Shown here one piece after another: positions 295-13,962 of a stretch of DNA of 64,000 nt. The notes beneath the pieces were generated by a model. It did not search any database. It saw only the letters and a list, made by a program, of their open reading frames with translations, and had not been told where the DNA came from. The stretch lies in NCBI RefSeq assembly GCF_041346945.1, contig NZ_CP166851.1:121873-185872 (forward strand), in the 5' to 3' direction. Made by a program: the position numbers and the translations under genes. How positions within the stretch are numbered: the first letter of the stretch is position 1; every line of letters begins with the position of its first letter. The stretch comes from Amycolatopsis sp. cg9 (lineage in GTDB: Bacteria > Actinomycetota > Actinomycetes > Mycobacteriales > Pseudonocardiaceae).

Positions 295-957
295 TCACCA
301 TTTCGGCCAGCGAGGTTCGATGTGGATTCCCGCTGCTTGCTGGTGGGAGCAGGGGGCTGCCGGTGCCGGCGGCGGTGGTCCGATGCGCGCCCAGAACGCG
401 GCGGAGTCCGGTTCGTCGGGCGGGTTCGCGCTCCAGCGGTATCCGGCGCCTCGGGCCGCTGCCGCGCGGGCCAGGACCCGGCCGACGCCGCGGCGTCGGT
501 GCTGCGGTTCGACGTGGATGCCGAGCAGCAGTCCGCGCCGATCGAGCGGGCACAGCGACAGCTCGACCTGGCCGTAGATCGTGGCGCCCCACCGCAGCTG
601 GATGAGGCCGATCCCCGCGCGGTCGGCGGGCGGGAGGACTACGAGCTGGAGTCGCCGCGACTGGACCTGTTCCTCGGTGACCTGCGCGGCGACCGACGGG
701 TCGACCAGCGCCCATCGTCCACCGGTGCCTGGCTGGTTTTCGCAGTGCCGGCACACGAGCTCGTTGAGCTGGTAGTCCTGGTTCGGGGCCTCCTGCAACT
801 GTCCGGGCCGCAGCCAGTGCCGTGCCGGGCACCACCGGGGCAGGTGCGGCCCGGACTCCGGCCGAGTCCATGGCCAGAGCGGGACGTCGAGGTAGCGTCC
901 CGCTCGCGCCGCCCCCGCGCCGGCGTGGCGGGCTGCTGTCGGGTCAGCGGAAGTCAC
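295..957 (-). CDS. GNAT-like acetyltransferase domain protein
   Basis: A 220-residue protein whose second half carries a GNAT-like acetyl-CoA loop (HVEPQHRRRGVGRVLA) followed by a short helix and a strand with a conserved SAAFW-type ending, as in N-acetyltransferases. The first half is Pro/Trp/Arg-rich and holds a CRHCEN pair that could bind metal. Its start overlaps the 3' end of dnaE2 by 14 bp, so it is the translationally coupled last gene of the dnaE2 unit. The substrate cannot be inferred. The fold call rests on the R-x-x-G-x-G/A motif; the N-terminal region is unrecognised. Confidence 0.6.
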   Translation of the reverse strand: MTSADPTAARHAGAGAARAGRYLDVPLWPWTRPESGPHLPRWCPARHWLRPGQLQEAPNQDYQLNELVCRHCENQPGTGGRWALVDPSVAAQVTEEQVQSRRLQLVVLPPADRAGIGLIQLRWGATIYGQVELSLCPLDRRGLLLGIHVEPQHRRRGVGRVLARAAAARGAGYRWSANPPDEPDSAAFWARIGPPPPAPAAPCSHQQAAGIHIEPRWPKW

Positions 958-3900
958 GGCTCTTGCTGGCCAAAGCGCGCAGGTCCAGCGGGGTGATGTG
1001 GTCTGCGACGAGCGACGCGGTGCCCTGGGAGACTTGGGCTTTCCCGCGGATCACCAGCGCCGAGCAGGTGGAGAGGACTTGCCGGTACCGCGTCCAGGTG
1101 CCGGGGTGGACGATCACGTTGGTCATCCCGGTCTCGTCCTCGAGGTTGAGGAAGGTGATCCCGCCCGCGGTGGCGGGCCGCTGCCGGTGGGTGACCGCGC
1201 CGCCGACCAGGATGCGGGTGCCGTCGGCGACGTCGAGCAGCTGCGCAGCGGGGACGACGCCGAGGCTGTCGAGGTGCTGGCGGACGAACTGGACGGGGTG
1301 CTGGTCGGGGGTGATGCCGGTGGCCCACACGTCGGCGGCCGCGACCTCGAGCGCGGTCATGCCCGGCAGGGCTGGGGCGTCGACGCCGGTGGCGATGCCG
1401 GGCAGGTGTCCGGCGCGGGTGCGGGCGGCGGCGCCGGCGGCCCAGAGGGCTTGGCGGCGGTCCGGGCCCAGCGTGCTGAACGCGCCGCTGGTGGCGAGGG
1501 CTTCGGCGACCGGCTGGGTGAGCTGCACCCGCTGGGTGAGTTCGCCGATGCTGCCGTACGGGCCGTGTAGGGCGCGGTCGGCGACGATCCGCTCGGCGAC
1601 GTCGGCGCCGACGTTGCGGATCGCGGCCAGCCCGAGCCGGACCGCCACGCCGCCGGCGGAGTCGGGGTCGGGCTCGAGGGTGGCGTGCTCGTGGGAGGCG
1701 TTGATGTCGGGTTCGCGGACGCGGACGCCGTGCCGGCGGGCGTCGGCGACCAGCGACTGCGGGGAGTAGAACCCCATCGGCTGCGCCCGCAGCAGTCCGG
1801 CGCAGAACGCCGCCGGGTAGTAGTACTTGAACCAGGCGCTCGCGTAGACCAGCAGCGCGAAGGCCATCGAGTGCGCTTCGGGGAAGCCGTAGCCGGCGAA
1901 GGCGTGGATCTGCTCGAAGATCCGCTCGGCCAGCGGCCGCGGCACGTCGTTGGCGGCGCAGCCGTCGAAGAAGCGGGTCATCAGCGCCCGCATCTTCCGG
2001 TCCGAGCGTTTCGAGCCCATCGCCCGCCGCAGCCGGTCGGCTTCGGCGGGGGTGAAGCTCGCGACGTCGACGGCCATCTGCATCACTTGCTCCTGGAACA
2101 GCGGCACGCCGAGCGTGCGGTCCAGGCTCGGGGCGAGCAGCGGGTGAGCGTGGCGCCAGGTTTCCTCGCCGCGGCGGCGCCGGATGTAGGGGTGCACCGA
2201 GCCGCCCTGGATCGGGCCCGGCCGGATCAACGCGACTTCGACTACGAGGTCGTAGAACTTCCTCGGCCGCAGCCGCGGCAGCGTGCCGAGCTGAGCACGG
2301 GACTCGACCTGGAACACGCCGATCGCGTCGGCGGCGCAGAGCATGTCGTAGACGTTCTTGTCGGCCAGGTCCAGCTCGCCGAGGTCGACCTCGCGGCCGT
2401 GGTGCTCGGCGACCAGGTCGATGCTGAAGCGCAGTGCCGAGAGCATTCCGAGCCCGAGCAGATCGAACTTGACCAGCCCGACGGCCGCGCAGTCGTCTTT
2501 GTCCCATTGCAGCACGCTGCGCCCGGCCATGGTCGCCCATTCGACCGGGACCACTTCGGACACCGGCTGCTTCGAGATCACCATGCCGCCGGAGTGGATG
2601 CCGAGGTGGCGTGGCATGTCCTCCATCTGCGCGGCGAGCTCGCGGACGTCCTCGGGCACGCCGTGGCCGCGTTCGCCCGGTGTCTCGCTGTCGGCGATCC
2701 GGCGCCACCGGTCGACCTGTTTGCCGAACGCGTCCTGCTGGCCCTCGCTGTATCCGAGTGCCTTGGCTGCGTCGCGGACCGCGGACTTCGCCCGGTAGGT
2801 GATCACGTTGGCGACTTGGGCGGCGTGCAGTCGGCCGTGCCGCTGGAAGACGTACTGGATGGCTTCCTCGCGGCGGCCGGACTCGATGTCGACGTCGATG
2901 TCCGGCGGGCCGTCGCGTTCCTCGGACAGGAACCGCTCGAACAACAGGCCCCATCTGACCGGGTCGGCATGGCAGATCCACAACGCGAAGCAGACCGCCG
3001 AGTTCGCGGCGGAACCGCGGCCCTGGGCGAGTATCCGGTTCTCGCGGCAGAACCGGACGATGTCCCAGACGACCAGGAAGTAGCCGGCGAACCCCAGCGC
3101 CTTGATGACGTCCAGTTCGCGCTCGAGCTGCGCGTAGGCGTCCGGTGCCTCGGCGGGGGTGCCGTAGCGGACGGCGGCGCCGTCCATGACCAGGTGGCGC
3201 AGGTAGGCGTCCTCGTCGGCGTGGCCAGGGGGCACCGGGAACGGCGGCAGCGTCGGGGCCACGAGCGTCAGGTCGACCGCGCACTCCTGGCCGAGCTTCG
3301 CCGCGCGGGCGACGGCGCCGGGGTAGCGGCGTTCGAACTGCTGCCGCTGCTCCGCGCCGGAGCGCAGGAACGCCGCGCCGGCTGCGGGAAGCCAGCCCTC
3401 CATCTCCTCGAGCGAGCGCTGGGCCCGGATCGCCGCGAGGGCATCCGCCAGTCGGCTGTCGCGGGGAGCTGCGTAGTGCACGTTGTTCGACACGACCGTC
3501 GGCAGGCGCAGTTCGCGGGCCATGGCGGCCAGGTGGTCGTTGTGTGTGCTGTCCAGCGGCTGGCGGTGGTCGATGAGCTCCACCGCGACGTGCTCGCGAC
3601 CGAACCGGTCGGCCAGCAGGGCCATTTCGTCGGCGGCCGCGGCGGGGCCGCCCTGGGCGAGGGCCTGGCGGACGGCGCCCTTTCGGCAGCCGGTCAGCAC
3701 CTGGACGTGCCCGGCCAGCTCGTCCACAACCTCGGCGAGGTCGTAGACGGGGCGTCCTTTCTCCCCGCCGGCGAGCTGGGCGTGGGAGATCACCCGGCAC
3801 AGCCGGCGGTAGCCCTCCAGGCCGCGGGCCAGGACCAGGAGGTGGGTGCCTTCCGGATCCGGGACGCCGTTCTGCCGGGCGGTCAGCCCGAGCGAGAGCT

Positions 3901-4273
3901 CCGCGCCGTACCCCGCGTCGATTCCGAGTTCGCGGGCGGCCGTGGCGAAGCGGACCGCGCCGTACATGCCGTCGTGATCGGTCAGCATGATCGCGTCCAG
4001 GCCCAGCCGGACGGCCTCTTCGACCAATGCCTCCGGTGAGCTGGCGCCGTCGAGGAAACTGAAGTCGGAGTGCACGTGCAGCTCGGCGTAGGGCACCCGC
4101 TCCTGCTCGGTGCCGTGCCCGGTCGCCAGGTCGGGCGGTGGGCGGTAGCCGTCGCGCTTGCGGCTCCAGGCCGGGGAGTCCCCGCCGTCGCCGTCGATCG
4201 CGGGTTTCCGGCCGGACGCGATGCGCTCCAGCTCCCGCCATGACGTTCGGCTGCCGCCGTCGAAATTGGACAC
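944..4273 (-). CDS. dnaE2: Error-prone DNA polymerase, DnaE2/ImuC type
   Basis: A 1109-residue C-family polymerase that copies damaged DNA in SOS mutagenesis, normally with ImuA'/ImuB. The PHP domain starts near residue 62 (HVHSDFSFLDGA at 66-77). The palm holds GQGRGSAANS near 417 and the metal-binding PDIDVDIE at 457-464. A fingers region, helix-hairpin-helix and OB domain follow (TRILVGGAVTHRQRP near the C-terminus). Length is typical of DnaE2 (about 1050-1100). The start is GTG at 4273 with a weak ribosome site. No imuA or imuB lies beside it, so any partners are elsewhere. The GNAT-like gene overlaps its 3' end. A long open frame on the opposite strand is a GC-driven shadow. Confidence 0.95.
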   Translation of the reverse strand: MSNFDGGSRTSWRELERIASGRKPAIDGDGGDSPAWSRKRDGYRPPPDLATGHGTEQERVPYAELHVHSDFSFLDGASSPEALVEEAVRLGLDAIMLTDHDGMYGAVRFATAARELGIDAGYGAELSLGLTARQNGVPDPEGTHLLVLARGLEGYRRLCRVISHAQLAGGEKGRPVYDLAEVVDELAGHVQVLTGCRKGAVRQALAQGGPAAAADEMALLADRFGREHVAVELIDHRQPLDSTHNDHLAAMARELRLPTVVSNNVHYAAPRDSRLADALAAIRAQRSLEEMEGWLPAAGAAFLRSGAEQRQQFERRYPGAVARAAKLGQECAVDLTLVAPTLPPFPVPPGHADEDAYLRHLVMDGAAVRYGTPAEAPDAYAQLERELDVIKALGFAGYFLVVWDIVRFCRENRILAQGRGSAANSAVCFALWICHADPVRWGLLFERFLSEERDGPPDIDVDIESGRREEAIQYVFQRHGRLHAAQVANVITYRAKSAVRDAAKALGYSEGQQDAFGKQVDRWRRIADSETPGERGHGVPEDVRELAAQMEDMPRHLGIHSGGMVISKQPVSEVVPVEWATMAGRSVLQWDKDDCAAVGLVKFDLLGLGMLSALRFSIDLVAEHHGREVDLGELDLADKNVYDMLCAADAIGVFQVESRAQLGTLPRLRPRKFYDLVVEVALIRPGPIQGGSVHPYIRRRRGEETWRHAHPLLAPSLDRTLGVPLFQEQVMQMAVDVASFTPAEADRLRRAMGSKRSDRKMRALMTRFFDGCAANDVPRPLAERIFEQIHAFAGYGFPEAHSMAFALLVYASAWFKYYYPAAFCAGLLRAQPMGFYSPQSLVADARRHGVRVREPDINASHEHATLEPDPDSAGGVAVRLGLAAIRNVGADVAERIVADRALHGPYGSIGELTQRVQLTQPVAEALATSGAFSTLGPDRRQALWAAGAAARTRAGHLPGIATGVDAPALPGMTALEVAAADVWATGITPDQHPVQFVRQHLDSLGVVPAAQLLDVADGTRILVGGAVTHRQRPATAGGITFLNLEDETGMTNVIVHPGTWTRYRQVLSTCSALVIRGKAQVSQGTASLVADHITPLDLRALASKSRDFR

Positions 4274-4828: not shown

Positions 4829-5785
4829 ATGGACACGACGCCCACCACCCTCACTACTGCCGCCGATTCCGCCGCCCCGGCCGTGCACCTGATCTCGTTC
4901 GGGTTCCTGCACGGCCCGGTCCCGGAGGCAGACCTGGTCCTGGACGTCCGCCGCTGGCTGCACGACCCCGCCGCCGCGAAGGCGATCCTGGACCTCGACG
5001 GCCGCGACGCCCGTGTGCAGCAGACCGTCTACGGCACGCCCGGCGCGGTGGAGCTGGTCGAGCACGCGGTGCACGCCGCCGGCGTCGCGCACCGCGGTGA
5101 ACGCGTGCTGGCCTTCGGCTGTGCAGGCGGCCGGCACCGCAGCGTGGCCCTGGCCGAGCTTGCCGCCGGTCGCCTGGCGCTGCGCGGCTACCGCGTCAGC
5201 CTGGAGCACCGTGACGTCCACCGCCCCCGCGTCCTGCGCGCCGCCACGACGACCACGGAACCGGACCGGCGTGAACCCCGGGACCTGTACTTCGAGGCCC
5301 CGAACTACTACCTGCCCCAGCCCGGCGACGCCCCGGCGGTGTTCCTCGCCGGCGGGATCACTGGCTGCCCGCGCTGGCATGATCACGCCGCCGCGGTGCT
5401 CGCCGCCGCGCCCGAGCCGGTCGTGGTGCTCAACCCCAACCGGGCGGACTTCCCAATCCACGACCCGGCCGCCGGCTGGGAACAGGTCTCCTGGGAGCAG
5501 CACCACCTGCACCTGGCCGAGACCACCACGTTGTTCTGGTTTCCGGCCTGCGACCCGGCGGTGACGGTGCAGCCAATCGCGATGTACGAGCTGGGCCAGG
5601 CCCTCGGCGAAGGCCGCCGGATCGTCGTCGGCGCGGATCCCGGCTATCCGCGCGTGGCCGACGTCCGGATGCTCTGCCAGCTCGCCCAGCCCGGCCTTCC
5701 CGTTCACAGCACCCTTGACGACACCCTCGCCGCGGTCCTGGATGCGTTGCCCCACCCCGCCGAAGCCGCACTCGCCGCCGCGTAG
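4829..5785 (+). CDS. RapZ C-terminal-like domain fused to nucleoside 2-deoxyribosyltransferase-like domain
   Basis: A 318-residue two-domain protein. Residues about 20-135 resemble the C-terminal domain of RapZ, with the hallmark GCAGGRHRSVA at 97-107 (compare GCTGGQHRSV in RapZ). Residues about 168-300 begin VFLAGGITGCPRWHD and look like the deoxyribosyltransferase-like fold, with NPNRADFP, an acidic WEQVSWEQHHL and a MYELGQALGEGRR segment. Deoxyribosyltransferases swap bases on deoxynucleosides; many distant members act as nucleotide-derivative hydrolases or sensors. RapZ-C senses a small molecule and binds RNA. The pairing suggests a nucleotide-signal enzyme, but that is inference. A perfect hairpin follows at 5791. 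Confidence 0.7.
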   Translation: MDTTPTTLTTAADSAAPAVHLISFGFLHGPVPEADLVLDVRRWLHDPAAAKAILDLDGRDARVQQTVYGTPGAVELVEHAVHAAGVAHRGERVLAFGCAGGRHRSVALAELAAGRLALRGYRVSLEHRDVHRPRVLRAATTTTEPDRREPRDLYFEAPNYYLPQPGDAPAVFLAGGITGCPRWHDHAAAVLAAAPEPVVVLNPNRADFPIHDPAAGWEQVSWEQHHLHLAETTTLFWFPACDPAVTVQPIAMYELGQALGEGRRIVVGADPGYPRVADVRMLCQLAQPGLPVHSTLDDTLAAVLDALPHPAEAALAAA

Positions 5786-6575: not shown

Positions 6576-8630
6576 ATGGCGCGCACAGCCCGTCGCGACA
6601 GCTCCCGGGTCCCCGGCTGGGTCGAGCCGATGCTGGCCAAGCCCGACGGCGGGCGACTGCGCGAAGGCCCAGATTGGACCTACGAGTACAAGCTGGACGG
6701 CTACCGCGCCTGCATGCAGATCGCCCCGGACGGCACGACGCGGCTGACCAGCCGCGCCGGCAACGACTTCACCGACGAGTTCGCCGAGCTCACCAGCGTG
6801 TTCGGCCCGGCCCTCGAGGGCCGGGCCGCCGTGCTGGACGGCGAGATCGTGGTCTACAACGAGGCCGGCCAGCCTGAGTTCGGCATGTTGCAGGAACGTC
6901 GCGGCCGCTACCAGACCCACCGCAGCTCGATCCGCCGCGGCGAGCCGTTCGAGGGCCTGCCGGTCCGGTTCCTGGCCTTCGACCTGCTTCAGCTCGGCAC
7001 ACGGTCGCTGCTGGGCGCTCCGTACGACGAACGCCGGCAGCAGCTGCTGGCGCTGCCGATGCCGGATCCGTACCGGGTGGCGGTGGTGCGGGGGTTCACC
7101 TTCACCGAGCTCGACGCCGATCGCTGCACGCCCGCGCATCTGCTGGCCCACGTCGCCGCGGCCGGCCACGAGGGTCTGGTTGCGAAGAACCGCCGCGCGG
7201 TCTACACGCCGGGCAAGCGCACCGACGCCTGGCTCAAGCACCCGCTGATCCAGACCACCGAGGTCATCGTGTGCGGCTGGCGCCCGGGACAGGGCAGCTT
7301 CGCCGGGAAGGTCGGTGGCCTGCTGCTCGGCGCGCATGATCCGGACACCGGCGACCTGTGCTACATCGGCGACGTCGGGACCGGCTTCAAGGAAGCCGAA
7401 CGCGACCGCCTGCAAACCCGCCTCAAGCCGCTGGAGCGGTCGCAGCACCCGTTCGCGGTCACGCCGCCGCGGGAGGACGTCGTCCGCGCCCGCTGGGTCG
7501 ACCCGGTACTGGTCGGAGAGGTCCAATACCGGCAGTTCACGCGCGGTGCCGGGCGCCTGCGCCACACCAGCTGGCGTGGCCTGCGTGCCGACCGTGTGCC
7601 CGGCGACGTCCTCGTCCCCCGCACCGAGCCGCGTGTGGCCGCCCAGCTCCCGCCGGTCAACCCGACGGCTTCCGAACCCGCGGCCGCGCCGGCGCAGCCG
7701 ACCGGGGCGAAAATCACGGTGCAGGCCGGGAAACGGCAGATCACCTTGTCCAACCTGGACAAGCCGTTGTACCCGGATGGGTTTACCAAGGCGCAGGTCA
7801 TCCACTACTACTCCCGCATTGCCCCCGTCTTGCTGCCACATCTGGCCGGGCGGCCAGTCACGGTCATCCGGTTCCCCGACGGCGTCGACGGACAGCAGTT
7901 CTTCGAGAAGAACGTCCCCCGCGGCGCTCCGAGCTGGTTGTCCACGGTCCGGCTGCCGAGCACGAGTTCCCGCAGCCGTCACGGCGAGCGCGGTGAACCG
8001 ATCGAGTACCCGCTGCTGGACGAGCTCGCGGCGCTGGTGTGGGAGGCGAACATGGCCGCCCTGGAGATCCACGTCCCGCAGTGCATCGTCGACCTGGGGC
8101 CGCCACCGGCGCGCCGGCCGCCGGACAGGCTGGTGTTCGACCTCGACCCCGGGCCCGGCGCGTCGATCGTGGATTGCTGTCGGGTCGCGGAACGGCTGAA
8201 CGACCTGCTGGCCGCCGACGGGCTGACCGCGTTCGCCAAGACGTCCGGTTCCAAGGGAATGCAGTTGTACTGCGCGATCAGCACCGATGACCCCGCGGCG
8301 CCGTCCGCCTACGCCAAGCGGCTGGCCCGGCACCTGGCGCGGCAGACACCTGAGCAGGTGACCGCAGTGATGGCCAGGGCGCAGCGCGCGGGCAAGGTGT
8401 TCATCGACTGGTCGCAGAACAACCCGGCCAAGACAACCATCGCGCCGTACTCGCTTCGCGGCCGCGACCGGCCAACCGTCTCCACGCCGGTCACCTGGGC
8501 GGAAGTCCGCGCCTCCCGTCACGCGAGCCAGCTGGTCTTCACAGCCGAGGATGTTCTCGACCGCGTCGACGAGCACGGCGACCTCCTCGACACCCTCGAC
8601 AGCACTCGCGCCCCGTTGCCCACCGGCTGA
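6576..8630 (+). CDS. ligD: ATP-dependent DNA ligase LigD, ligase-polymerase two-domain form
   Basis: A 684-residue NHEJ-type ligase. The nucleotidyltransferase domain comes first: EYKLDGYR at 37-44 contains adenylated Lys39, then LDGEIVVY, FLAFDLL, EGLVAKN and DAWLKH, and an OB domain to about 360. A primase-polymerase (LigD_pol) domain starts near 385 (ITLSNLDKPLYPDGFT) with the FDLDPGPG metal site near 520. There is no phosphoesterase domain, and the order is ligase then polymerase, as in Bacillus LigD rather than Mycobacterium. The motif usually read SGSKGLH is SGSKGMQ here, so a conserved His is replaced. No ku gene is in the window. The start follows a GCGGGAGGTGCGGGG ribosome region. 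Confidence 0.95.
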   Translation: MARTARRDSSRVPGWVEPMLAKPDGGRLREGPDWTYEYKLDGYRACMQIAPDGTTRLTSRAGNDFTDEFAELTSVFGPALEGRAAVLDGEIVVYNEAGQPEFGMLQERRGRYQTHRSSIRRGEPFEGLPVRFLAFDLLQLGTRSLLGAPYDERRQQLLALPMPDPYRVAVVRGFTFTELDADRCTPAHLLAHVAAAGHEGLVAKNRRAVYTPGKRTDAWLKHPLIQTTEVIVCGWRPGQGSFAGKVGGLLLGAHDPDTGDLCYIGDVGTGFKEAERDRLQTRLKPLERSQHPFAVTPPREDVVRARWVDPVLVGEVQYRQFTRGAGRLRHTSWRGLRADRVPGDVLVPRTEPRVAAQLPPVNPTASEPAAAPAQPTGAKITVQAGKRQITLSNLDKPLYPDGFTKAQVIHYYSRIAPVLLPHLAGRPVTVIRFPDGVDGQQFFEKNVPRGAPSWLSTVRLPSTSSRSRHGERGEPIEYPLLDELAALVWEANMAALEIHVPQCIVDLGPPPARRPPDRLVFDLDPGPGASIVDCCRVAERLNDLLAADGLTAFAKTSGSKGMQLYCAISTDDPAAPSAYAKRLARHLARQTPEQVTAVMARAQRAGKVFIDWSQNNPAKTTIAPYSLRGRDRPTVSTPVTWAEVRASRHASQLVFTAEDVLDRVDEHGDLLDTLDSTRAPLPTG

Positions 8631-8999: not shown

Positions 9000-9058
9000 G
9001 ACTGGGCTTTTTCTGGGCATCATGCTTCACTCAGTACATGCCCAAAAAAGGCCCAGTC
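9000..9058. promoter_or_regulatory. Long inverted repeat spanning a start codon
   Basis: Arms at 9000-9020 and 9038-9058 are reverse complements over 21 bp with two mismatches, around a 17-nt loop. The right arm starts exactly at the ATG of the first gene of the three-gene operon, and no Shine-Dalgarno lies before it. As DNA it could be an operator; as RNA it would bury the start codon. No other such site was seen in the window. Confidence 0.6.
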
Positions 9059-9949
9059 GAGGACGAGGTTCGCGCCGCGGTCGCGCGACTGCTGCGGCGG
9101 GGCCTCCCGGTCACGCCGGCCAGCGCCGACACCGCCCTGCTCAACCTCCGCGGAATCGTCGCCAGGGCCGTGGACCCAGCCGACCCGGCGAGCCGCACCG
9201 CTGCGTTGGACGGCACGCTGCGTGGCCTGCTTGCTCGTTTTCCGGATGCCCGCCATGCCGCAGCGGCGCGAGCGCTGTTCGGGCTGCCACCTGCCGAACC
9301 GGGCCAGAACCTGACCGCCCGCCGCGCGCAGGCCGCCACGCTGGCGGGGTACGAAGTACACCACTTCCGCAAGCGGGTCGAGCCGAAGTTGCTCGAGCGG
9401 GTGGCCTGGGAGCTACTGGCCGACGCCGACCGCTTCACGCGGTCACCGATGATCGCGCCCCGGCTCGCTCCGGCCGGCGAGCGCCAACTGGTACTGCCGG
9501 ACCCGTTCGCCTGGGAAGTGACCGAGCACGAGGAGCACCTGTCGCGGTTGTGGTCCGCGCTGTTCGCCGCCCGCGCCGAACTGCTGGCCCTGGAGCGCCT
9601 GATCAGCTTGGAGGCCGAGCGCACGGCCATCGTTCGGGTTGCGGTGACCGCCGCATGGCGCTGGGGCGCGGCTCGCGCCGAAGCGGTCAACTACACCACC
9701 GCGTTCGCCTCAGAGCTGGAGAAGACCTCCGCCGACGAGCTCACCGCGCTGGCCGGCTGGACGCCGCCGCTGACCGACGCGCAGGCGGCCCGCCTGACCG
9801 AAGCCGCGTCCGGCGGTGCCAGCCGCGAGCAATTTGTCCAGGCCCTGCACGACGAGACCGAGCTGGGCAACGCCTGGATCGAGGGTTTCCTCACGCCGTC
9901 GGAACACGACAAGACCACGACCGAGAACAGGAACGGATCACAGCATTGA
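9038..9949 (+). CDS. Helical protein of unknown function, first gene of aaRS-like/ASCH operon
   Basis: A 303-residue, predicted all-helical protein. Residues about 1-130 hold a segment typical of some actinobacterial regulatory proteins (ALFGLPPAEPGQNLTARRAQ, then FRKRVEPKLLERVAWELL), which reads like a helix-turn-helix-type module. The rest is amphipathic helix. I do not recognise a named family. The ATG at 9038 is preferred over upstream frames because the coding-like sequence begins there, immediately after the palindrome loop. The stop overlaps the TTG start of the next gene, so the three genes are translationally coupled. Confidence 0.6.
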   Translation: MPKKGPVEDEVRAAVARLLRRGLPVTPASADTALLNLRGIVARAVDPADPASRTAALDGTLRGLLARFPDARHAAAARALFGLPPAEPGQNLTARRAQAATLAGYEVHHFRKRVEPKLLERVAWELLADADRFTRSPMIAPRLAPAGERQLVLPDPFAWEVTEHEEHLSRLWSALFAARAELLALERLISLEAERTAIVRVAVTAAWRWGAARAEAVNYTTAFASELEKTSADELTALAGWTPPLTDAQAARLTEAASGGASREQFVQALHDETELGNAWIEGFLTPSEHDKTTTENRNGSQH

Positions 9950-10563
9950 GCAGCAACAACCTCACACCCTCACCCGCGCTCACCGCCGCGCTGAAGGCCG
10001 CCGATGACGAGGCTCCCCGCCGGTACGTCATCACCGGCGGCCCCTCGTCAGGCAAGGACGACTTGATCACCGCAGTGCACGCCGCCGGAATTCCCTGCAT
10101 GCAGGACGAGCCCGGCCGAGAGATCTACCGCAAGCACCGCGAACGACTCGGCCGGCATCTGCGCCGCGAAGACCGCCGGGAGTACTCGTTGGAGGTCTTG
10201 GACGCCTTCGTGGCCGAGTACACCGCCCACCAACACGGCGTCCGCTTCTACAACCGCGGCATCCCCGACGGCTACGGCTGGGAGGCGTTCTTCGGCCTGC
10301 GCCCCACCAGCGAGCTGGAAGAGGCGACTCGGCGGTACCGGTACGACACCATCTTCGTCCTCGATCCGCTGGACACCTTCGAGGACCCCGACGACATCGT
10401 CTGGGCCAAGGACCGTGAGATCCGCCGGGTGCACGAGTTGATCGTCCAGGGCTACTTCGACGCCGGCTACGAGCCGGTCTTCGTCGCCCCGGACTCCGCC
10501 GCCGCCCGGCTGGACTTCATCTGCGCCAACCTGCGTCTGCCCAAACCAAGCCGAGGAGCGTGA
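9946..10563 (+). CDS. P-loop NTPase/kinase-like protein (AAA_28 type)
   Basis: A 205-residue P-loop protein. The Walker A is GGPSSGKDD near residues 31-39 and a Walker-B-like IFVLDP lies near 136, followed by a C-terminal REIRRVHELIVQGYFDAGYEPVFV. This resembles the AAA_28 family of small kinase-like NTPases, related to the NadR kinase domain. The start is TTG at 9946, overlapping the upstream TGA, with AGGAACGG as ribosome site. The 3' end touches the start of the synthetase-like gene. Substrate unknown; its neighbours suggest it prepares or removes a nucleotide or RNA-linked group. Confidence 0.7.
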   Translation: MSSNNLTPSPALTAALKAADDEAPRRYVITGGPSSGKDDLITAVHAAGIPCMQDEPGREIYRKHRERLGRHLRREDRREYSLEVLDAFVAEYTAHQHGVRFYNRGIPDGYGWEAFFGLRPTSELEEATRRYRYDTIFVLDPLDTFEDPDDIVWAKDREIRRVHELIVQGYFDAGYEPVFVAPDSAAARLDFICANLRLPKPSRGA

Positions 10564-12044
10564 TGTCGTTGTCCCGCACCGCAAAAGCAGGCACGCCGGG
10601 CCTGCTGCTGTCGCCGAACAGCGTGCTGGCTAACGCGCTGCTGCGCTCGATCGACCTGCTCCGGCCGCGCGTGCTCGCCGCACGACCCTCGCGCATCGAG
10701 TTCGTGGTCGGCACCCAGATCAACGGTGCCCCGCACCTGGGCACCAACCTGGTGCAGACCGCGGCGTTCCTCCTGGCCAAGACCGCCCGCCGCGAGTTCT
10801 CCATCGACACCACGGTGCGGTTCAGCGCGCTGGACAACGCTCCCCACGAGGTCATCCTGGACCCGGAGACCCACCACGCCTATCAGCAGACCTACTTCCA
10901 CGCCTTGGGCAAGGACAAGATCAGCGAACTGATCGAGGGCTACTACCTGTCGTTCTTCGACTCGTTGGCCGAGGCGACCGGCACCGAGTACGCGATCGAG
11001 ACCTACACCGATCAGCAGGCCACGCCCGGTTTCCGCGCCGAGTTCCTGCGCACGCTCGAGCGGATCGAGGACATCCGCTGGTGGATGGCGCCCTCCCACG
11101 GCGTGGTGCACGTGCGCGTTCCGTGTCCGTACTGCGGCTGGGCGGAAAAGCGCGCCGACCGCACCAAGCTCGCCGGCTTGGACGAGGACGGCGCCACCTT
11201 CACCGCCACTTGCTTCGACCACGGCGGCTACGAGGCGCACATCGACCCCGAGGACTCCACGCCCTACCTGGACCTGGCGACGCTGTACCGCAACCTCGTC
11301 AAGGAACGCGCGTTCGGCCGGGACACCGACGTGCTGCACGTGATGATGAAGGGCGGCGACTGGACATTCGGCTGTCAGCTCGTCGACGGCGCCCTCGGCG
11401 CGCTGGGAACGCCGCCGACCGCGATGCCGATGCGGATCTTCACCCCGCAAGTGCTTGCTCCGACCGGCGCGAAGCTGTCCAAGTCGCTCCTGCGCGAACA
11501 AGGCAAAGGCGCCCTTCCCGCCGACGTCGAGCCCTGGATGCTCGACACCACCACCTGGACCGGCGACGTCGACAACTACGTCGACGCGCTGGTGTGGCTG
11601 GTCAGCGAGCTGCTGACCGACCCGAAGCACTTCTTCCGCTCGTTCACCGTCAAGGAGCTCGGCCGCCTGATGACCGCCCGCCCGACCACCATGCCTGTGC
11701 GCGCCCACGAGATGGGCATCTACAAGCGCTACTTCGACCTGATCGCCACTGGACGCAAGACCACTGAGATCCGCGTCAACGACTCCAGCCGTCAGAAGAT
11801 CAAGCAGGGGTCGCTGATCCGGTTCCGCTGCCAGGGTGACGAAGTTCTGACGCGCGTTACCAAGGTGGCCCGCTACGCCTCCTTCGAGGAGATGTTCGAC
11901 CACGAAGCCGTGACGTCGGTCAACCCGTTGGCCACGCGCGAAGAACAGCTGGCCAACATCCGCCAGATCTACCCACCGGAGCGGGAAGCGCTGGGAGTGG
12001 TCGCGATCGGCATCGAGCTGGTCAACCCGCCTCGATCGGCGTGA
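10563..12044 (+). CDS. Class I aminoacyl-tRNA-synthetase-like catalytic domain fused to ASCH domain
   Basis: A 493-residue fusion. Residues about 40-345 resemble the Rossmann catalytic core of class I synthetases, closest in feel to class I lysyl-tRNA synthetase. The HIGH motif appears as HLGTN at 57-61 after GTQINGAP, a CPYC zinc-knuckle candidate sits near 188, and KLSKS (KMSKS) lies at 304-308. The anticodon-binding domain is absent; instead residues about 380-490 form an ASCH domain (MGIYKRYFDLIATGRKTTEIRV...), a PUA-like fold expected to bind RNA or modified nucleosides. It is unlikely to be a housekeeping synthetase. GTG at 10560 is an alternative start. It is the last gene of the operon; a hairpin follows. 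Confidence 0.75.
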   Translation: MSLSRTAKAGTPGLLLSPNSVLANALLRSIDLLRPRVLAARPSRIEFVVGTQINGAPHLGTNLVQTAAFLLAKTARREFSIDTTVRFSALDNAPHEVILDPETHHAYQQTYFHALGKDKISELIEGYYLSFFDSLAEATGTEYAIETYTDQQATPGFRAEFLRTLERIEDIRWWMAPSHGVVHVRVPCPYCGWAEKRADRTKLAGLDEDGATFTATCFDHGGYEAHIDPEDSTPYLDLATLYRNLVKERAFGRDTDVLHVMMKGGDWTFGCQLVDGALGALGTPPTAMPMRIFTPQVLAPTGAKLSKSLLREQGKGALPADVEPWMLDTTTWTGDVDNYVDALVWLVSELLTDPKHFFRSFTVKELGRLMTARPTTMPVRAHEMGIYKRYFDLIATGRKTTEIRVNDSSRQKIKQGSLIRFRCQGDEVLTRVTKVARYASFEEMFDHEAVTSVNPLATREEQLANIRQIYPPEREALGVVAIGIELVNPPRSA

Positions 12045-12067
12045 CCACCGAAGCACGACAACGCACA

Positions 12068-12101
12068 CGCTGGGCCTCGACCAAGGTATCGAGGCTCAGC
12101 G
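12068..12101. terminator. Bidirectional hairpin between convergent genes
   Basis: Thirteen-base arms (CGCTGGGCCTCGA and TCGAGGCTCAGCG, one mismatch) around an 8-nt loop lie between the convergent ends at 12044 and 12125, so the hairpin can serve both transcripts. Confidence 0.6.
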
Positions 12102-12124
12102 TCGTGCTTGTCGAGGTTTCCCGC

Positions 12125-13078: not shown

Positions 13079-13264
13079 GCGGGCACTTCCATGCACTGGC
13101 TGGTCAGTGGGCTGTTCACCTGAAAACGATAGAGGACAGCGGTCTTCCGGGCGGCCCGCCGCCAGCATCGCGCCGTGTGGCGAGCGACGCCAGGGCGGTA
13201 CTGCCCGGCTGCCGAACCGTTCGAGGCATTCCTGGCCTCGGCCTGCCCGGCTATCATCGGGGGC

Positions 13265-13552
13265 ATGACTTCGGCGCTCGCGAATCGCTCGCCCGCTGAC
13301 CAGTACCTGGTGCAGCGGATCGCGGCGCGCGACCGGGTTGACGTGGCGTCGCTGGCCGCGCTGCCGGCCCACGAGCTAGACCGGCTTCTTCCCGGCGGCC
13401 GAGCTGCGTTCGAGCATCGCGCGCAGGTCGCCCAGGCGCTGCTGACCCGCAGAGGCATCGACCCGGACTCGGCTGAGTATCAGGCGGCTGACGCGCAGGC
13501 CCGCGACATCCTGGCGCGCGTTGACCAGCTCGGTTCGGACCACGCCGCGTGA
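13265..13552 (+). CDS. Putative antitoxin of PIN-type toxin-antitoxin pair
   Basis: A 95-residue helical, charged protein (MTSALANRSPADQYLVQRI...) lying directly before a PIN-like gene, with its TGA overlapping the downstream GTG. Small size, position and coupling are those of a VapB-like antitoxin, but no DNA-binding family is recognised. It is divergent from the phosphotransferase gene across 186 bp. Role inferred from context. Confidence 0.5.
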   Translation: MTSALANRSPADQYLVQRIAARDRVDVASLAALPAHELDRLLPGGRAAFEHRAQVAQALLTRRGIDPDSAEYQAADAQARDILARVDQLGSDHAA

Positions 13553-13962
13553 CCCTGCCGCGCGCGCTGCTGCTCGACTCGACTTTCTTGATCGCCTACG
13601 AACGTGAGCTGAGTCCCCGGCTGGCGCAGGCCGTGGTGGTTCAGGCGATCACGAGCGGACGGCTGCTGGTCGTGCCTGCCGTGTCCTTGCTGGTCGCCGG
13701 GACCGAGCTGGGCGGGCGTCACCCGGATCTGTCCTGGATGCTCAACGACCCCGCCGGCCCGGTGGAGGTGCTGGCACTGTCGGCGGCTAACGCGCTGGAG
13801 ACCGGCGAGCAGGCCGCCCGCGCCGACGGGCCGGACCTGATCGGCGTCGAGGTGGCGCAGATCGTGGTGGAGGCCGGCGGCAGTCCGATGGCCGTGATGA
13901 CGTACGAGCCGAAGCGGTACTCGGGGCTGTCGTTGCAGGTCATGGATATGCGTCCCCGGTAG
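13549..13962 (+). CDS. PIN-domain-like toxin (VapC-like)
   Basis: A 137-residue protein with a PIN-like layout: LLLDSTFLIAYE at the N-terminus supplies the first acidic residue, and the C-terminal half (LIGVEVAQIVVEAGG, then MTYEPKRYSGL) matches the alpha/beta end of VapC ribonucleases where TSDP is usual. The aspartate of that last motif is Glu here, so activity may be altered. PIN toxins cleave RNA with Mg. The GTG start overlaps the upstream stop. VapC-like is the best call; a non-toxin PIN protein is possible. Confidence 0.55.
   Translation: MTLPRALLLDSTFLIAYERELSPRLAQAVVVQAITSGRLLVVPAVSLLVAGTELGGRHPDLSWMLNDPAGPVEVLALSAANALETGEQAARADGPDLIGVEVAQIVVEAGGSPMAVMTYEPKRYSGLSLQVMDMRPR

Follow-up and report, generated by a model that had tools for sequence, protein, structure and literature searches.

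A tRNA synthetase-like core joined to an ASCH domain in a three-gene mobile cassette of soil bacteria

What does an enzyme built on a tRNA synthetase core do when it carries an ASCH domain in place of an anticodon-binding domain, and when it is encoded with two further genes on mobile DNA? This question is raised by three overlapping genes, here called A, B and C, in a 64,000-nucleotide stretch of Amycolatopsis sp. cg9 DNA (the window), which lies at a contig end (C2:121873-185872) in a genome of 10.6 Mb in two contigs. We find that the trio is a mobile cassette on transposons and plasmids of soil bacteria, with relatives of C in phages, and that it appears to provide a new accessory function, perhaps in defence. 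Our preferred reading, to which we give a probability of about 45%, is that of a self-contained, autoregulated mobile cassette with an aminoacyl-tRNA synthetase (aaRS)-derived ligase for a nucleotide-type acceptor. Of this reading, the gene order, predicted fold, motifs, conserved element and mobility are shown; the substrates, the binding of the element by A, the kinase identity and target of B, and the benefit to carriers (defence or chemical tolerance) are inferred. The overlaps at both junctions, claimed by an earlier reading of the sequence alone, are confirmed by the coordinates of the open reading frames (ORFs):

9038..9949, + strand: gene A, 303 amino acids (aa), ATG at 9038; candidate DNA-binding autoregulator
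9946..10563, + strand: gene B, 205 aa, TTG at 9946, overlapping A by 4 nt; AAA_28 P-loop NTPase, probable kinase
10563..12044, + strand: gene C, 493 aa, ATG at 10563, alternative GTG at 10560; class I synthetase core plus ASCH

Within C we distinguish five features:

10638..11705, + strand: synthetase core, residues 26-381, resembling class I lysyl-tRNA synthetase (LysRS-I)
10734..10748, + strand: HLGTN (HIGH motif), residues 58-62
11124..11222, + strand: zinc-ribbon-like insert, with C188, C191, C217 and H220 in 129/129 sequences
11472..11486, + strand: KLSKS (KMSKS motif), residues 304-308
11712..12023, + strand: ASCH domain, residues 384-487 (PF04266)

By fold comparison, the predicted model of C has a class I (Rossmann) aaRS fold, to which LysRS-I is closest, with 1irx aligned over residues 3-362 of 507 only. 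The class I assignment rests on this comparison because hhalign of C to one LysRS-I gave a probability of 57%. No aaRS Pfam family matched window C at E ≤ 10; PF01921 matched neither it nor any of 35 family members at that threshold, tRNA-synt_1c reached E 0.17 in one of the 35, and a profile search brought up a GluRS at no better than E 0.29. The two motifs were already singled out by the sequence-only reading, and their key residues prove invariant in the 129-sequence alignment: H58 and G60 of HLGTN in all 123 sequences with a letter there (6/129 are gapped), and K304, S306 and K307 of KLSKS in 129/129. By analogy with LysRS-I, the insert may bind zinc. The proposal that ASCH stands where an anticodon-binding domain would be also held, as PF04266 matches at 55.5 bits (cut-off 21.2), the structure comparison likewise recovers the ASCH fold, and the 1irx alignment stops before the C-terminal part. 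A phmmer search of C against PDB returned three ASCH proteins and one solute-binding protein (E 0.0095), the last of which we regard as chance. We also rejected a weak match to TIGR03850 (20.3 bits against a cut-off of 299).

Synthetase paralogs that charge non-tRNA acceptors have repeatedly revealed new chemistry, and C, with its presumed non-canonical acceptor, is probably a paralog of this kind whose architecture is new, as is its mobile, self-regulated setting. Its core is joined to a fold that is known to bind RNA or modified nucleosides. LysRS-I (PF01921; 1irx) is closest in fold and has a similar zinc-type insert, but C lacks a PF01921 match, has ASCH where LysRS-I has a C-terminal helical anticodon-binding part, and has KLSKS instead of the KMSGS of the LysRS-I with which it was compared. 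Two ligases of thiol biosynthesis, BshC and MshC, which add cysteine to an aminosugar, resemble C in fold; they differ in gene context and are not known to carry ASCH. GluQ-RS (YadB) is a synthetase core without an anticodon domain; its structure 1nzj ranked only 23 in the fold comparison, and it has no ASCH. On the other side of the fusion, the archaeal single-domain proteins PH0355, PF0455 and PF0469 and Escherichia coli YqfB share the ASCH fold with C. The K of the YqfB GRKT aligns with K399 of C, whereas the second T of GRKTITIR, which we take to be catalytic, is E402 in C; the NCBIfam equivalog for N4-acetylcytidine amidohydrolase (YqfB) scored 13.6 bits, short of its cut-off of 93. We found no description of the trio or of a synthetase-ASCH fusion in the literature searched, a scope outside which most subscription papers fall, in agreement with the earlier statement that no such system was known.

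To define the unit, the best 120 of 660 relatives were listed. We examined 91 loci, namely the window, 11 viral contigs and 79 loci of named genomes, the last a capped sample drawn from the 80 best among 112 retained relatives. (L and G numbers are our labels for loci and genomes; L094 is the contig of L030, L100 matches L082, L039 and L040 are one genome, and L019 and L020 are subspecies.) The synthetase is paired with ASCH in these loci. In 39 of the 91, the identity of C to window C is 60% or higher, and in 38 of these tblastn places A, B and C in order; in L054 the trio appears as fragments only. The three-gene unit described from the sequence alone thus stands among close relatives, but not beyond them: the other 52 loci comprise L045 and 51 loci, mostly from Streptomyces and nine of them viral contigs, with neither A nor B by tblastn, 47 with synthetase (~370 aa) and ASCH (~118 aa) as adjacent separate genes and four with the two fused. 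Homologs without the NTPase and helical genes, which that reading had named as counting against it, thus do exist, and the reading is to that extent contradicted. In L045, an AT-rich, unclassified metagenome-assembled genome that is probably not actinobacterial, B and C overlap, A has no match, and no ORF in the 600 bp before B reaches 90 aa. Because A and B are missing from 51 loci and A from L045, the invariant unit is synthetase plus ASCH, with B as a frequent partner and A as a lineage-specific one.

In a tree of 131 sequences (omitting L020, L040, L094, L098 and L100 as duplicates, copies of C shorter than 300 aa or with stops, and P0241 and P0250), the split form is one clade with support 1.0, which includes phage Picard and the fused L051. 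Since this clade is nested among fused forms, fusion looks ancestral and splitting secondary, on a tree in which several deep branches have support below 0.2. A gene of the low-molecular-weight phosphatase family (PF01451, checked on L046 only) lies directly 3' of C in L046, L049, L090 and, within the trio lineage, L050; found in two lineages, it is perhaps a functional counterpart of B. Within five genes of C in 52 non-trio loci (a set with L054 and without L045), the most frequent neighbours were HATPase_c_2 genes (21/52), a ~450-aa protein without a Pfam match (21/52) and methyltransferases (20/52). Core-only distant relatives of C have neighbourhoods of their own: on the Macrococcus-group plasmids L129 and L130, two ATP-grasp genes, a helix-turn-helix (HTH) regulator and an MFS transporter make a candidate small-molecule cluster, and on the Pantoea plasmid pJZ29-01 (L131) a methyltransferase, the synthetase-like gene, a TIGR00730 protein, a DMT transporter and a purine NTP pyrophosphatase are consecutive.

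The occurrence of C is patchy. C was found in 6 of 36 genomes of the window's own genus (broken in G001 and G008), in 4/396 genomes of its phylum, counting the window's own and one matched by ASCH alone, and in 1/296 of the phylum of L045, namely L045's own; its close clade shows 76-90% identity across actinobacterial genera. C is present over at least 80% of its length in nine plasmid records, and the plasmid NZ_CP024896.1 of Amycolatopsis sp. AA4 carries it. Three phage records, which represent two isolates, Picard and Mojorita, also have C over at least 80% of its length; in Picard the synthetase/ASCH pair has lysis genes on one side and a serine integrase on the other, and its annotations are 'tRNA synthetase' and 'RNA binding protein'. 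Actinomadura violacea (L039, L040) has two copies of an 8,097-bp element, 99.99% identical and with 42-bp terminal inverted repeats. Besides A-B-C, the element holds a resolvase, a Tn3 transposase that is split in two in one of the copies, and a further 127-aa ORF, so that this small Tn3 transposon carries little cargo other than the trio. The copies lie in direct orientation ~153.6 kb apart on one contig and their 5-bp flanks are crossed (GATTC/GCAAC, with the terminal repeat taken to start at GGGG), a pattern that a cointegrate would show; the double element thus looks like an unresolved one. In L033, L022 and L052, terminal repeats of 30 to 41 bp flank the trio, together with Tn3 transposase and/or resolvase genes. 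The cassette seems dispensable, since C is in at least two tblastn pieces in several trio loci, with sequencing error possible for some broken copies in draft genomes.

The cassette also carries its own element, a palindrome over the start of A that the sequence-only reading had noticed (position 9000, where the segment it flagged begins, is the left arm):

9000..9020, + strand: left arm, a direct pair of TGGGC half-sites 11 bp apart
9026..9031, + strand: TTCACT in the palindrome centre, sequence at -12 to -7 before A
9038..9058, + strand: right arm, the half-site pair inverted, within the first codons of A

The arms pair at 19/21 positions with a score of 15, where none of 30 composition-preserving shuffles exceeded 8, and the element is conserved across genera (compared without the trio loci L020, L040 and L094, the other loci L098 and L100, and the window itself). 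In 22 loci, 65 of 110 codons at positions 2-6 of A end in A, compared to 6.4% over the remainder of the gene (a count without L020 and L040, and without the L037-type trio loci L094 and L095, in which the start of A is not covered). TTCACT would occupy a -10-like position if the mRNA of A is leaderless; similar hexamers are seen by eye in many relatives, and no sigma-70 consensus promoter was found. The exact motif occurs once in the 10.6-Mb genome, and no regulon elsewhere was found in the genomes searched with this exact pattern, which misses some trios: G869, a genome of the class, has A, B and C without it. Such a conserved, cassette-specific element is a handle, as it predicts a regulator and offers a reporter for the inducing signal, and hence for function.

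The candidate regulator is A, a DNA-binding autoregulator if the assignment is correct. A is all-helical, as the earlier reading had it, with a conserved HTH-like segment at about residues 92-115; a Pfam scan gave no family at E ≤ 1 and Foldseek no usable match. Its profile matched 7/197 genomes of the class: three (the window genome, G915 and G869) have full-length A, all with B and C, in G821 the contig ends inside A, and three weak matches (E 1.7e-5 to 6.6e-4) extend only to about residue 130, with no adjoining B or C. The P-loop NTPase assignment of B was likewise correct, with AAA_28 (PF13521) at 84.6 bits against a cut-off of 27 and this feature:

10036..10056, + strand: Walker A of B, residues 31-37

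The Walker A (GGPSxGK), R104 and D108 are invariant in 17 sequences, which suggests that B is probably a kinase; phmmer found no solved relatives at E ≤ 1. Right behind C, we noted by eye a long imperfect inverted repeat (12048-12115), a possible transcription terminator without a T-run.

How might these proteins work together? C would use ATP to convert an amino acid or other carboxylic acid into an acyl-adenylate, with HIGH and KMSKS intact; this activation is the strongest step, and we hold it to be very likely. C would then transfer this acyl group, and the acceptor would be of nucleotide type (a modified base, RNA end or free nucleotide derivative), with a good chance that it is not selected by an anticodon. 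A would repress its own operon by binding the TGGGC half-site pairs that span promoter and start codon, and repression through the palindrome seems reasonably likely, slightly more so than binding of the acceptor by ASCH, which would position it for C. B, the P-loop kinase, would most likely phosphorylate the acceptor or its precursor, and we put even odds on B being a kinase of the same pathway as C. We assigned these probabilities by judgement, not computation. RNA or metabolite modification, defence and host take-over, the roles first suggested for the trio, may each apply. An unlikely, bolder version is a mobile immunity or tolerance system on a tRNA-synthetase core, in which C adds an amino acid to an RNA end or a (modified) base read by ASCH, phosphorylation by B makes the acceptor ready or returns it to its initial form, and A responds to this state by switching on the operon, whose operator spans its own start codon; if true, transposons, plasmids and temperate phages would use aminoacyl tagging of nucleic acid or nucleotides to counter rivals or toxins.

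We considered that C might instead be a small-molecule ligase like BshC or MshC, such that a metabolite is made or detoxified, B is a metabolite kinase and ASCH binds a small molecule. This is a serious rival because the core-only relatives on Macrococcus-group and Pantoea plasmids lie near ATP-grasp or nucleotide-handling genes. However, those relatives have no ASCH, and the 8.1-kb transposon has no recognised transporter or further pathway gene; on balance we think this explanation rather improbable, if the best of the alternatives.

We also considered a toxin-antitoxin or abortive-infection module, in which C (or B) is harmful when freed and A is an autoregulating antitoxin. The element with its look of autoregulation, the gene overlaps, the occurrence on plasmids and transposons and several broken copies would suit such a module, as would a complete pPIWI-RE system immediately upstream of the trio in Crossiella (L021:1073-8375). 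In contrast, the three proteins are large and conserved and do not form a small pair, and no PADLOC (2023) model matches A, B or C at E ≤ 1. We scanned 144 of 177 neighbour genes from 26 of 31 trio loci, a set without the window's own neighbours or the L033 Tn3 transposase, and found one complete, located defence system, the pPIWI-RE of L021, in 26 neighbourhoods (PADLOC, E ≤ 1e-10), a count that is weak either way because it has no background set, and that could understate defence. A module of this kind seems doubtful. Other PADLOC matches were mad3 in three genes (only ~70-115 residues covered), mad2 in two, DISARM DrmD in two (best 3.3e-57), an IetA/TRIP13-type ATPase and WYL regulators; the genes behind the DrmD and mad2 matches were not among 20 rescanned genes.

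A comparably small chance attaches to the palindrome acting as an RNA hairpin that masks the A start codon, by attenuation or with the ASCH protein as riboregulator, rather than as a DNA operator: the predicted RNA fold (-37.1 kcal/mol, z -5.4) has the start codon within the stem, but in the trio loci L034, L039, L042, L043 and L050 the half-sites occur only as upstream direct repeats, with none in the coding start. Least probable is a minimal tRNA-charging synthetase, for example an inhibitor-resistant spare LysRS on mobile DNA, which the LysRS-I-like fold, insert and motifs would allow, but C has no anticodon domain and no aaRS Pfam match, and the positions that we take to be the lysine contacts of LysRS-I appear replaced by invariant Q52 and W267.

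Several other genes in the window may be recorded. A DNA polymerase III alpha-type gene (944-4273) and a LigD polymerase/ligase gene (6576-8630) share the contig with the trio, and the gene at 4829-5785 joins a RapZ C-terminal domain to a nucleoside deoxyribosyltransferase-like domain. Downstream, small overlapping genes at 13175-13962 form a possible toxin-antitoxin pair, of which the second (13549-13962) has no Pfam match and appears PIN-like by eye.
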